A stretch of DNA of 64,000 bases from Cupriavidus basilensis (GTDB lineage: Bacteria; Pseudomonadota; Gammaproteobacteria; Burkholderiales; Burkholderiaceae). Where the stretch lies: assembly GCF_008801925.2 (NCBI RefSeq), contig NZ_CP062803.1:620001-684000 (forward strand), written 5' to 3'. Both the position numbers and the translations under genes were made by a program. Within the stretch, counting starts at the first letter, position 1, and every line of letters starts with the position of its first letter. The notes beneath the pieces were generated by a model. It did not search any database. It saw only the letters and a list, made by a program, of their open reading frames with translations, and was not told the origin of the DNA. This document shows, piece after piece, positions 19,295 through 48,975 of this stretch.

Positions 19295-19650
19295 GGGTGA
19301 TGGGGGATTGTAACGTTGGGAGGGTGGGGGTGGCTGCAATTGCCTATTGTCAAAAGCAACTGCAGTTTCACCACCCCTGCGGGGCGGCGACCTACTTTCT
19401 TGTCTTGCCAAGAAAGTAGGCAAAGAAGGCGCGCCGGATGGGGCGACTACCCCCTCGGGCTTCGGCGAAAAGAGCGGCCGGGACCCAAACTCGCATCGCC
19501 TTAAGGCGATACTCAGACATGGGTCCCTCTTTTCCGCTCTTTTCGCCGAAGCCCGAGGCGCCCCATACGGCCTTGGCACACCTTGACGGCTCGCTTCGCA
19601 TCGCGTTGGGGTGATTCCCGCCCTTCGAGCGGGAATCACGGCTACACCGA
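19295..19650 (+). repeat. Structured repeat, copy A
   Basis: G-tract at 19295-19330, spacer, then hairpins. Short stem 19370-19387; H2 at 19391-19420 (11-bp stem, CCTACTTTCTT/AAGAAAGTAGG). The long hairpin H3 pairs 19438-19445 with 19559-19566, 19453-19477 with 19534-19558 (25 bp perfect) and 19480-19486 with 19521-19527. Its apex is the perfect palindrome ATCGCCTTAAGGCGAT (19495-19510). H4 pairs 19611-19621 with 19629-19639. The tail ends CTACACCGA. Three further copies lie at 36.2, 36.6 and 47.4/48.8 kb. Short open frames inside it are unlikely to be genes. Confidence 0.85.
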
Positions 19651-19676
19651 TCGGTTGATCTTGCCGTTGGTTGGCT

Positions 19677-19702
19677 CCCCTCTCCCACTTGTGGGAGAGG
19701 GG
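19677..19702 (-). terminator. Possible purH terminator hairpin
   Basis: CCCCTCTCCC (19677-19686) pairs perfectly with GGGAGAGGGG (19693-19702) around a 6-nt loop. It lies downstream of purH on the minus strand. There is no T-run, so it may be a REP-like hairpin that stabilises the 3' end rather than a strict intrinsic terminator. Confidence 0.45.
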
Positions 19703-19727
19703 CCGGGGGAGAGGGCGGGCGCTTGCT

Positions 19728-36197: not shown

Positions 36198-36561
36198 GGG
36201 TAGGGTTGGTGGGGGCTGAAGCTTCAGTTGCAACGGCTTAACGTCAAGGGTAGCTTTAACTTCAACTTCAACTGCCGTTTCACCTCCCCTGCGGGGAGGC
36301 GACCTACTTTCTTGTCTCGCCAAGAAAGTAGGCAAAGAAGGCGACCCGGATGGGGCGACTCCCTCCTCGTCGGCAGGCAAAAAGAGCGGCCGGGGGCCAA
36401 ACTCGCATCGCCTTAAGGCGATACTCAAACATGGCCCCCTCTTTTCCGCTCTTTTTGCCTGCCGACGAGGCGCCCCATACGGGCTAGGTAAACCTTGACG
36501 GCTCGCTTCGCATCGCGGGCGGGTGATTGCCGCCTGGGGGCGGCAATCACGGCTACACCGA
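36198..36561 (+). repeat. Structured repeat, copy B
   Basis: The G-tract (36198-36215) starts on the base after the trpS stop. After a spacer come the short stem near 36283-36299, the 11-bp stem with CCTACTTTCTT and AAGAAAGTAGG (36303-36332), the long hairpin pairing 36365-36389 with 36446-36470 (25 bp perfect), the apical palindrome ATCGCCTTAAGGCGAT (36407-36422) and H4 pairing 36523-36534 with 36539-36550. Its long arm differs from copy A at 7 of 25 positions, each matched by a complementary change in the other arm. Confidence 0.85.
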
Positions 36562-36587: not shown

Positions 36588-36951
36588 GCCGTGTTTCCCG
36601 CCTGGGGGCGGGAAACACCCATGGCGATGCGAAGCGAGCCGTGGAGGTGTACCAAGGCCGTATGGGGCGCCTCGGGATTTCATGAAAAGAGCGGAGAAGA
36701 GGGACCCATGTCTGAGTATCGCCTTAAGGCGATGCGAGTTTGGGTCCCGGCCGCTCTTTTCATGAAATCCCGAGGGGGTGTCGCCCCATCCGGCGCGCCT
36801 TCTTTGCCTACTTTCTTGGCAAGACAAGAAAGTAGGTCGCCGCCCCGCAGGGGTGGTGAAACTGCAGTTGAATTTTCAGTTAAGCCATTGAATCTAAAGC
36901 TGATTTAGTAGTTGCAGTTGCAAGCCACATCCCCCCATCCCCTTTATTCCC
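36588..36951 (-). repeat. Structured repeat, copy B' (inverted)
   Basis: Opposite orientation to copy B, separated by about 30 bases. H4: 36591-36602 with 36607-36618. Long hairpin: 36670-36694 with 36751-36775, 25 bp perfect, again with its own arm sequence. The stem made of CCTACTTTCTT and AAGAAAGTAGG is also present. The G-tract on the minus strand (C-tract 36931-36951 on plus) overlaps the stop of the DMT transporter gene. B and B' together form a near-palindromic region of about 600 bp between two convergent genes. Confidence 0.85.
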
Positions 36952-47403: not shown

Positions 47404-47657
47404 GGGTTTGGGGGCTGTGATGGGGGAGGTTTGGTGGGGTTTGGAATGGCAACTGCGACAGGAAAACTGGCTTGCGCTGGCTTGACGTCAACTGCTTAAC
47501 TGCAACTTCGGTTTCACCACCCCTGTGGGGCGGCGACCTACTTTCTTGTCTTGCCAACGGCCAAGAAAGTAGGCAAAAAAGGCGCGCCGGATGGGGCGAC
47601 TACCTCCTCGGGATTCGACGAAAAGAGCGGCCGGGACCCAAACTCGCATCGCCTTAA
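47404..47657 (+). repeat. Structured repeat, copy C, left part
   Basis: G-tract 47404-47443, spacer with AACTGC/CAACTGC-like motifs, short stem near 47517, the 11-bp stem with a small insertion in its loop (about 47537-47570), left long arm 47606-47630. The copy is broken at the centre of the apical palindrome (CGCCTTAAGG) by the IS5 element. TTAA at 47654-47657 is the left copy of the target duplication. Confidence 0.85.
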
Positions 47658-48832
47658 GGATCGCCTGAAAAACTCAGTTTCGTGACCCGGGCGTCTTATC
47701 GACACCGTCGCGGTTTGGATCTCCGCGGCTCTCCGGCTGGTTGCGTCAGCGCAATCCCGTTCTCTACCCGGTTGGGAGGCCATTCGGCCCCTCAATCGGC
47801 GTCACACGCCGTACGCAAGCAGCGCTCTGCGAGCCATCCAGAGATTGCTTAGTGCAAACAGCGTCTTCAGTTGTGCCGTGTTCTTCGCGAGACCTCGGTA
47901 ACGGACCTTGGCCATGCCGAACTGCTGCTTCAGCACCCGGAATGGATGTTCCACCTTCCCCCGGATCTTCGCTTTGATCGATTCGATCTCATTGAGCATC
48001 GCTTGAGCACGATCGCTGAGATCGAGTCTGCGGCGCTTGCCGGGCAGCATGCTCACGTGCCACCTCACCCCCGGTGCAGCCTCGGGCCGCTTGTGCACGC
48101 CAACGAAGCCGGCATCGCCAAAGACATCTGTTTCATTGCCATGCAGCAAGCTGTGTGCTTGGCTGATCTCACTCACATGGGCAGCCGTGCCGATCACGGT
48201 GTGCACCAGTCCGGAATCCGCATCCACGCCAATATGCGCCTTCATGCCGAAGTAATACTGCTTGCCCTTACGCGTGGAGTGCATCTCAGGATCACGCTCT
48301 CCACTGCTGTTCTTCGTCGAGGTCGGTGCACTGATCAATGTGGCATCGACCACCGTTCCCGCTTTCAACATCAGGCCTTTGCCTGCCAGCATCCCGTTCA
48401 CGACCGTCAATATCTGGGCAGCCAAGTCGTGCCGCTCCAGCAAGTGACGAAATCTCAAGATCGTGCTTTCGTCTGGCAACCGCGCCATGGCGCCGTCCAG
48501 GCCAGCGAACTCGCGATAGAGCGGCACATCATGAAGCGCTTCTTCCATGGCCGGATCTGACAGGCCGAACCACTGCTGCAGGAAGTGAACGCGCAACATC
48601 GTCCCGACCGGAAATGGTGGGCGTCCGGTCTTCTTCTTGGGGCAATGGGGTTCGATCAGGGCAACCAGGTCTGCCCAGGGGACCACCTGACTCATCTCAT
48701 CCAAGAACTCGCGCTTACGCGTGCGCTTTGTCGACAGGTTCAATCCCAATTCTCCTTGCTTCATGGCAGCTTCCTCCTGACTAGTGCAACGTAGGGGAAG
48801 CGCCACTCGCTGACACGTTTTGCAGAGAATCC
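47658..48832 (-). mobile_element. IS5-family insertion sequence, 1175 bp
   Basis: The ends GGATCGCCTGAAAAAC (47658-47673) and, read inward from the right, GGATTCTCTGCAAAAC (48817-48832) match at 12 of 16 positions. TTAA at 47654-47657 and 48833-48836 flanks it, fitting the YTAR target duplications of the IS5 subgroup. It carries one transposase gene of the DDE type. Length suits the subgroup (about 1.2 kb). It looks intact and could still be mobile. Confidence 0.9.
47802..48764 (-). CDS. IS5-family transposase
   Basis: 320 residues from MKQGELGLNLSTKRTRKREF at 48764, with TCAGGAGG just upstream as a strong ribosome-binding site; an upstream in-frame start is less likely. The DDE residues are visible: TVVDATLISAPTS, VFGDAGFVGVHKR, and the IS5 signature R-x3-E-x6-K in RGKVEHPFRVLKQQFG. 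The N-terminus has the DUF772-like GTMLRVHFLQQWFGLSDPAMEEAL. No frameshift or stop is seen. Confidence 0.95.
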   Translation of the reverse strand: MKQGELGLNLSTKRTRKREFLDEMSQVVPWADLVALIEPHCPKKKTGRPPFPVGTMLRVHFLQQWFGLSDPAMEEALHDVPLYREFAGLDGAMARLPDESTILRFRHLLERHDLAAQILTVVNGMLAGKGLMLKAGTVVDATLISAPTSTKNSSGERDPEMHSTRKGKQYYFGMKAHIGVDADSGLVHTVIGTAAHVSEISQAHSLLHGNETDVFGDAGFVGVHKRPEAAPGVRWHVSMLPGKRRRLDLSDRAQAMLNEIESIKAKIRGKVEHPFRVLKQQFGMAKVRYRGLAKNTAQLKTLFALSNLWMARRALLAYGV

Positions 48833-48975
48833 TTAAGGCGATACTCAGACATGGGTCCCTCTTTTCCGCTCTTTTCGCCGAATCCCGAGGCGCCCCATAC
48901 GGCCTGGTACACCTTCACGGCTCGCTTCGCATCGCGCTGGGGTGTTCGCCGGGGGCGGGTCACACTGCTACACCT
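48833..48975 (+). repeat. Structured repeat, copy C, right part
   Basis: TTAA (48833-48836), half of the apical palindrome, right long arm 48866-48890, then the conserved ACGGCTCGCTTCGCATCGCG segment, a degenerate H4 (about 48941-48964) and tail CTACACCTA. Compared with the left arm at 47606-47630 there is one mismatch in 25, the only imperfect arm pair of the family in this window. Confidence 0.8.

Follow-up and report, generated by a model that had tools for sequence, protein, structure and literature searches.

The repeat at positions 19,295 to 19,650 of the window (the whole 64,000-nucleotide stretch of Cupriavidus basilensis DNA that was analysed, G000:C1:620001-684000, from a genome of 8.94 Mb) is probably one of many copies of a structured RNA element. 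This element would be encoded on the minus strand of the present copy, copy A, would occupy sites at gene ends and would switch between arm types through recombination combined with selection on the fold. It is approximately 285 nt long and contains several helices, among them H3 with arms of 25 + 8 bp. The family looks like one branch of a wide and mostly unnamed group of bacterial RNA repeats.

Layout of the repeat and extent of the family

Re-reading of the sequence located the four copies (A, B, B' and C) that a sequence-only reading had reported. On the minus strand, copy A comprises a hexamer-like tract on the 3' side of the predicted RNA (19295-19356, seen as a lag-6 self-match), the hairpins H1 (19371-19387) and H2 (19392-19419), a segment that mirrors the H2 stem and is proposed as a third strand (19421-19429), the hairpin H3 and the hairpin H4 (19611-19639). 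H3 is made up of arm 1 (19453-19477 and 19534-19558), arm 2 (19480-19487 and 19520-19527), a 6-nt one-sided bulge that separates arm 2 from arm 1 (19528-19533) and a conserved internal loop (AACTCGC / CTCAGACA) with a top hairpin (19488-19519), which is also present in other families. Copies B (36198-36561, minus strand, arm type GTCGGCAGGCA) and B' (36588-36951, plus strand, which there is the predicted RNA strand, arm type GGGATTTCATG) are the left and right halves of an inverted pair, with H3 arms at 36365-36389 / 36446-36470 and 36751-36775 / 36670-36694. The arm limits given earlier for A, B and B' are exact, and all 25 bp are perfectly paired in each of them. Direct reading also confirmed that A and B differ at arm positions 6-11 and 15, and A and B' at 8 and 11-14, every difference being compensated on the opposite side; the H4 variants ATT-C, ATT-G and TTT-C are present in A, B and B'.

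Copy C (47404-47659 and 48831-48975, minus strand) has one mismatch in its H3 arms and is split in the top loop by an insertion sequence (47660-48830, with DDE_Tnp_1 and DUF772 matches) that carries a DDE transposase gene (47802-48806, minus strand) and is flanked on either side by CCTTAAGG. The identical insertion sequence (1171 bp, 100%) is found at 47660-48830 of the window and at 613-1783 of locus L039, that is, in two different repeat copies, at the same place in both, as if the CCTTAAGG top loop were a preferred target. The hexamer tract is degenerate (AACTGC, GTCAAAGGC and similar units) and stands ahead of the copies at 19295-19356, 36198-36268, 36871-36951 and 47404-47500; over 119 copies its mean self-match is 0.54 at lag 6, 0.25 at lag 5 and 0.29 at lag 7, and orthologues of copy A from three genomes differ in its length. 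A CTCTCCC...GGGAGAGGG repeat directly adjoins copy A (19671-19720) and is present in many of the genomes that make up the genus. Elsewhere in the window, Rfam matches correspond to a Betaproteobacteria toxic small RNA (RF02278, 2629-2692) and to RNase P RNA (RF00010, 1383-1724).

A search for an exact pattern taken from the repeat gave 11 stretches, which belong to Cupriavidus basilensis OR16 and Burkholderiaceae bacterium 16 (Bb16). With copy A as query, 81 matching pieces were found in its own genome, including single copies, inverted pairs resembling B/B' and copies devoid of H3. The latter number seven (L038, L040-L044 and one half of L045, 468-626); L041-L044 have a common junction and the remaining three have other breakpoints. 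Copy A matches 12 of 80 genomes, its own included, and the strong matches all lie within the genus, where the structure model R1 matches 7 of 47 genomes (E <= 0.001). In total, 138 H3 records were gathered from seven genome sets (G024, 43; G023, 41; G000, 39; Bb16, 8; OR16, 3; G047, 3; G021, 1), a number in which one place is counted twice (L029/L039), identical copies within one genome are merged and copy C of the window is absent. Judging from their identical flanks, OR16 and G047 are probably the same genome; they are separate in the count of 138, and their mutual pairs were excluded from the comparison of orthologues. Removal of 14 records with a shifted frame, an insertion or a truncation left 124 usable copies, and 132 of the 138 were kept in the full-length alignment (6 removed). 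The counts of copies and contexts are not independent, since the copies are related to one another and each inverted pair contributes its two halves. No description of the family was found in the accessible portions of a mostly open-access literature on REP elements, on Cupriavidus, Burkholderia and Ralstonia repeats, on TwoAYGGAY and on RNA triple helices (including PMC2267715, PMC12306157 and PMC3733652).

The genes around the 138 records, as delimited by a simple ORF caller, are convergent in 57 cases, oriented -- in 44 and ++ in 21, never divergent, and unclassified in 16. With the same kind of caller, 6 of the window's 23 element-free control gaps (100 bp or longer) are divergent, compared with 2 of 27 in the fetched flanks, which is few in itself. 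One copy is situated between two genes that, from their sequence, are putatively purH and ruvC. The elements thus lie downstream of genes and in none of the 122 classified cases between divergent ones, as in the REP/BIME setting; the part of PMC3733652 that was available describes the same preference of REP elements for non-divergent intergenic sites. At the 21 ++ sites of these 122, the minus strand is not the sense strand of the upstream gene.

Covariation, arm types and the strand of the fold

The fold of copy A is far more stable than expected from 100 shuffles each (z = -9.1 as RNA and -10.6 as DNA). The covariation test that the sequence-only reading had called for was performed on the minus-strand alignment of 79 distinct copies (79 of 80 haplotypes, the broken copy L213 being excluded). 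Standard pairs occupy 98.7% of the H3 cells as against 88.3% after shuffling, two-sided changes affect 327 cells as against 112, and the covariation score is 0.286 as against 0.099, a value reached in none of 500 shuffles; no slid structure exceeds 0.066. Two-sided changes occur at 13 pairs (ten in arm 1 and three in arm 2), a number that is not unusual, as 57 of the 500 shuffles are as high. Across the 31 pairs, 50 of the 124 usable copies are wholly Watson-Crick and the other 74 have at least one non-Watson-Crick pair. The possibility that the arm differences are alignment errors was rejected because the arms were read gap-free from fixed anchors.

For 86 of 131 copies another genome set contains an orthologue, recognized by a flank match of 500 bp or more on either or both sides. 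The 69 orthologous pairs contain 227 changed paired positions: 128 changes are two-sided with both states standard, 60 are one-sided and remain Watson-Crick or G.U on the minus-strand RNA, two are one-sided and standard on the plus strand only, and 37 are broken in one copy (33 one-sided, 4 two-sided). These positions bear out the earlier claim that the fold rather than the sequence is maintained. Six of the 69 pairs are identical and 21 differ by at least three two-sided changes, which we interpret as the replacement of one arm type by another while the site stays in place. At the site of copy A, for instance, the arms are CTTCGG/CCGAAG in G000, ATTCGG/CCGAAT in G023 and ATTCGA/CCGAAT in G024, and H2 and its third segment also change together among these three genomes. 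The middle of the stem is accordingly not copy-specific, as had been proposed; the copies have in common a limited set of arm types that are swapped as a block between orthologous sites. The constancy of the stem ends holds in the Cupriavidus-type clade, whereas in other families both parts differ and it is the loop and the geometry that stay. The copies of G161 likewise differ among themselves in paired arm segments. Hairpins with one arm of each type are few (L210, L211 and L212 of 124), and the pattern of arm types can be read as the outcome of conversion between copies together with selection on the RNA fold.

The mismatches have a strand. In the 79 rows of the H3 alignment, those that are G.U on the minus strand amount to 51 cells of 18 types, those that are G.U on the plus strand to 3 cells of 2 types, and all others to 37 cells of 16 types. 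The plus-strand wobbles are confined to L210 and L211, which look like joined halves of two arm types and are thus recombinant-looking; in a first alignment of 31 copies no plus-strand wobble had arisen from a one-sided change. Strand-biased mutation was rejected as the cause, given that the minor alleles of unpaired columns run the opposite way (20 in the favoured direction, 30 in the other), as they do in six other genomes taken together (61 and 83); as the unpaired columns lack the bias, mutation does not explain the H3 wobbles. In the same six genomes (G021 left out), 42 wobble types fit the minus strand and 24 the plus strand, and all six lean the same way, mildly. For 6 of 7 groups the minus strand gives the stabler consensus fold; G021, with the plus strand, is the exception. 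H2 alone shows a weak bias in the opposite direction, with six plus-strand wobble types and one minus-strand type in 116 of 132 rows (16 removed) and a plus-strand lean of 15 to 6 before cleaning; H1 alone has two wobble types on one strand and none on the other (24 of 132 rows dropped). In 79 of 80 haplotypes the minus strand also gives the more stable H3, by a mean of 11.6 kcal/mol, a difference uncorrected for composition and on which we do not rely. Because minus-strand wobbles in H3 far outnumber plus-strand ones and unpaired columns have no such bias, it is most likely the minus-strand RNA fold that is kept. The sequence-only reading had left the choice between selection on an RNA or DNA structure and arm-to-arm conversion; the strandedness of the wobbles favours selection on RNA and speaks against arm-to-arm conversion of DNA.

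The mirrored segment and the relatives of the family

Scored over 49 distinct stem/segment combinations, the segment that follows H2 mirrors the purine arm of its stem at 178 of 191 positions. On the plus strand the rule is A for A, G for G and C for T; with the commonest segment it holds at 79 of 85 positions in 22 stems, a value reached in none of 20000 permutations (mean 0.58). The scoring omitted the last stem pair and the C positions, the first three A's are fixed by the search pattern, and the C-for-T part of the rule was set post hoc from two lineages only. In the Cupriavidus-type family, 100 of 101 informative rows have the segment base expected from the changing C-G/T-A pair (shuffling gives 68 on average and 80 at most), the other 31 of the 132 rows having gaps or other states. 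A direct repeat was rejected in favour of a mirror because the A-runs on the two sides of the G are unequal and come in the order of a mirror. A-containing stems are of two kinds, CTATTG and one with an A at the second variable place; a search for the latter found it in G250 only (1 of 369 genomes). Read on the minus strand, the mirrored segment would be a pyrimidine strand parallel to the purine arm, its C-for-T case being what we take to be the G.TA triplet of the pyrimidine motif. Triple-helix hairpins with U.A-U and C.G-C triples beside a stem are known from the SAM-II riboswitch and the MALAT1/ENE element. The same triples are proposed beside the stem here; unlike in those RNAs, the hairpin is a simple one within a dispersed repeat, and the putative third strand would immediately precede it on the 5' side.

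Outside the genus, R1 detects H3 in one genome of the same order (G071) and in four of the same class (G161, G284, G093 and G353, class names being inferred). In all five the long stem is present together with the bulge and with an AACTCGC...GCTCAGACA loop or a near variant of it, on different arm sequences. H2 and the mirrored segment adjoin H3 in G071, G161, G093 and G353, a pattern search found no H2 in G284, and G191 and G250 have H2 and the same loop. Across 369 genomes of the class, R1 matches five, that of the window included, a scan that under-reports because eight candidates were scored per genome. When its interior is left free, the H2 pattern matches 117 of the 369 genomes of the class, with a maximum of 27 places in one genome, for which the reversed control gave 1; some of the 117 are plainly chance matches, and the reversed control was tallied for single genomes. 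The R1 scan, the H2 search and the search for A-containing stems covered largely the same 369 genomes. G165 and G191 have many inverted pairs, with a spacing of approximately 360-460 bp. Another H2-bearing repeat family, with a different body and inverted H2 places approximately 600 bp apart, is present in G021 of the same genus (L215-L220), and its consensus folds better on the plus strand.

The relatives include matches to the TwoAYGGAY RNA (RF01731, clan CL00106). Ten scanned loci of G165 contain 19 such matches (Rfam, E <= 0.1), of which 14 reach the gathering score of 43. An H2 was located by the pattern search beside 17 of the 19, and each of these 17 matches has the strand that was predicted; no H2 was found beside the other two. 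One of seven scanned loci of G444 matches as well, on the predicted strand, and no match was obtained in the scanned loci of G191 (two) and G250 (one). It is the middle of the H2-bounded element that matches TwoAYGGAY in G165 and at the one G444 locus; the matched stretches exclude the H2 hairpin and the mirrored segment. The Cupriavidus copies, by contrast, fail the Rfam model and have another apical loop: A, B, B' and C have no TwoAYGGAY match at the gathering score, and L001, L022, L036 and L037, at E <= 1, match nothing but miRNA models. Strict AYGGAY is absent on the minus strand from all 119 Cupriavidus-clade copies, and also from 18 of 19 G165 copies at model-matching loci. On the RNA strand, H3 arm 1 forms an outer stem that is long and weakly conserved, and a poorly conserved external stem is what PMC4333381 describes for TwoAYGGAY in its available text, where CsrA binding is also proposed. 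As far as the consulted part of PMC2864571 goes, TwoAYGGAY is probably an RNA and is found in the human gut, in gamma-Proteobacteria and in Clostridiales. Apart from TwoAYGGAY, Rfam gave only sub-threshold matches on the scanned element loci, many to miRNA models, besides a true tRNA in L372; one sub-threshold match in G165 is to the anti-hemB RNA (RF02837, L323 774-863, 37.4 bits for a cut-off of 49.5).

Competing explanations, possible role and significance

Three other scenarios may explain parts of these data. Palindromes are corrected through hairpin-templated replication, and such arm-to-arm correction of DNA might keep H3 perfect in the absence of any RNA function, as the joint change of both arms and the 50 perfect copies out of 124 would suggest; yet it predicts unbiased mismatches, which is at odds with the 18 versus 2 wobble types and the 60 versus 2 orthologue changes, the mixed-arm copies L210, L211 and L212 persist uncorrected, and the loop and bulge geometry recurs in other families, so that we hold this scenario to be improbable. 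Similarly unpromising is a selfish DNA repeat of the REP/BIME or MITE-like kind, whose single-stranded hairpin would be recognized by a transposase and whose covariation would reflect recognition of folded DNA. The dispersed copies, the inverted pairs, the strong DNA fold and the Y1 transposase domains (Y1_Tnp) at three places of the genome are in keeping with it. Against it, the 86 of 131 copies with an orthologue in another species mean that recent mobility is not evident, neither terminal inverted repeats nor a target duplication appear among the listed rows of a 43-copy alignment, none of the three Y1 loci has an H2-type pattern in the fetched stretch, and a strand-biased wobble is unexpected for DNA; a precise empty site of the repeat was not obtained.

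A bidirectional terminator or intergenic spacer, of which only the stability of the stem matters, has perhaps a modest chance of being correct. Convergent sites are the commonest (57 of 122) and divergent ones absent, as it would have it; however, a terminator needs neither the internal loop AACTCGC/CTCAGACA nor the bulge nor the mirrored segment, and the strand bias of the wobbles also counts against it. Comparison with REP elements is two-sided. According to the portion of PMC3733652 at hand, REP/BIME sequences (GTAG- or CGTC-tagged) are likewise intergenic, mostly at co-directional or convergent sites and often opposite in orientation when close together, and G.T pairing in REPs is taken there as a sign of RNA function; REPs are nevertheless palindromes of 20-40 bp, whereas the present element measures approximately 285 nt, has several helices and an internal loop that is conserved, and with H3 arms of 25 + 8 bp is not a tagged palindrome of that size. 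It would work like a REP/BIME-type RNA repeat and has a scaffold in common with the TwoAYGGAY-bearing repeats, but is neither TwoAYGGAY by Rfam nor a REP by size.

In the favored scenario of a multi-copy structured RNA, the RNA would be part of 3' untranslated regions or be processed from them, homologous recombination between copies would spread the arm types, selection on the RNA fold would remove recombinants with non-matching arms, and the mirrored segment would lie on the H2 stem as a third strand. The likeliest role, though less probable than not, is protection or termination of transcripts by a REP/BIME-like element at their 3' ends, whose apical loop may bind a protein; we would place 3'-end protection or termination first and protein binding by the apical loop next. 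A broader proposal, for which we see nearly even chances, is a modular RNA superfamily of Beta- and Gammaproteobacteria that would combine a hairpin bearing a pyrimidine third strand (U.A-U and C.G-C triples, with G.U-A at inverted pairs), a long stem of free sequence, interchangeable tops (TwoAYGGAY or the UGUCUGAG/GCGAGUU loop) and many copies at gene ends, with arm types spread by recombination and pairing kept by selection on RNA.

If these interpretations are correct, common unannotated repeats of proteobacteria would be functional RNAs instead of junk palindromes, and the strand of wobble mismatches would tell selection on RNA from selection on DNA in palindromic repeats. The hairpin H2 would represent a natural three-stranded hairpin backed by covariation, and the orphan TwoAYGGAY family would be placed in a genomic setting, among relatives and next to a 3' module.
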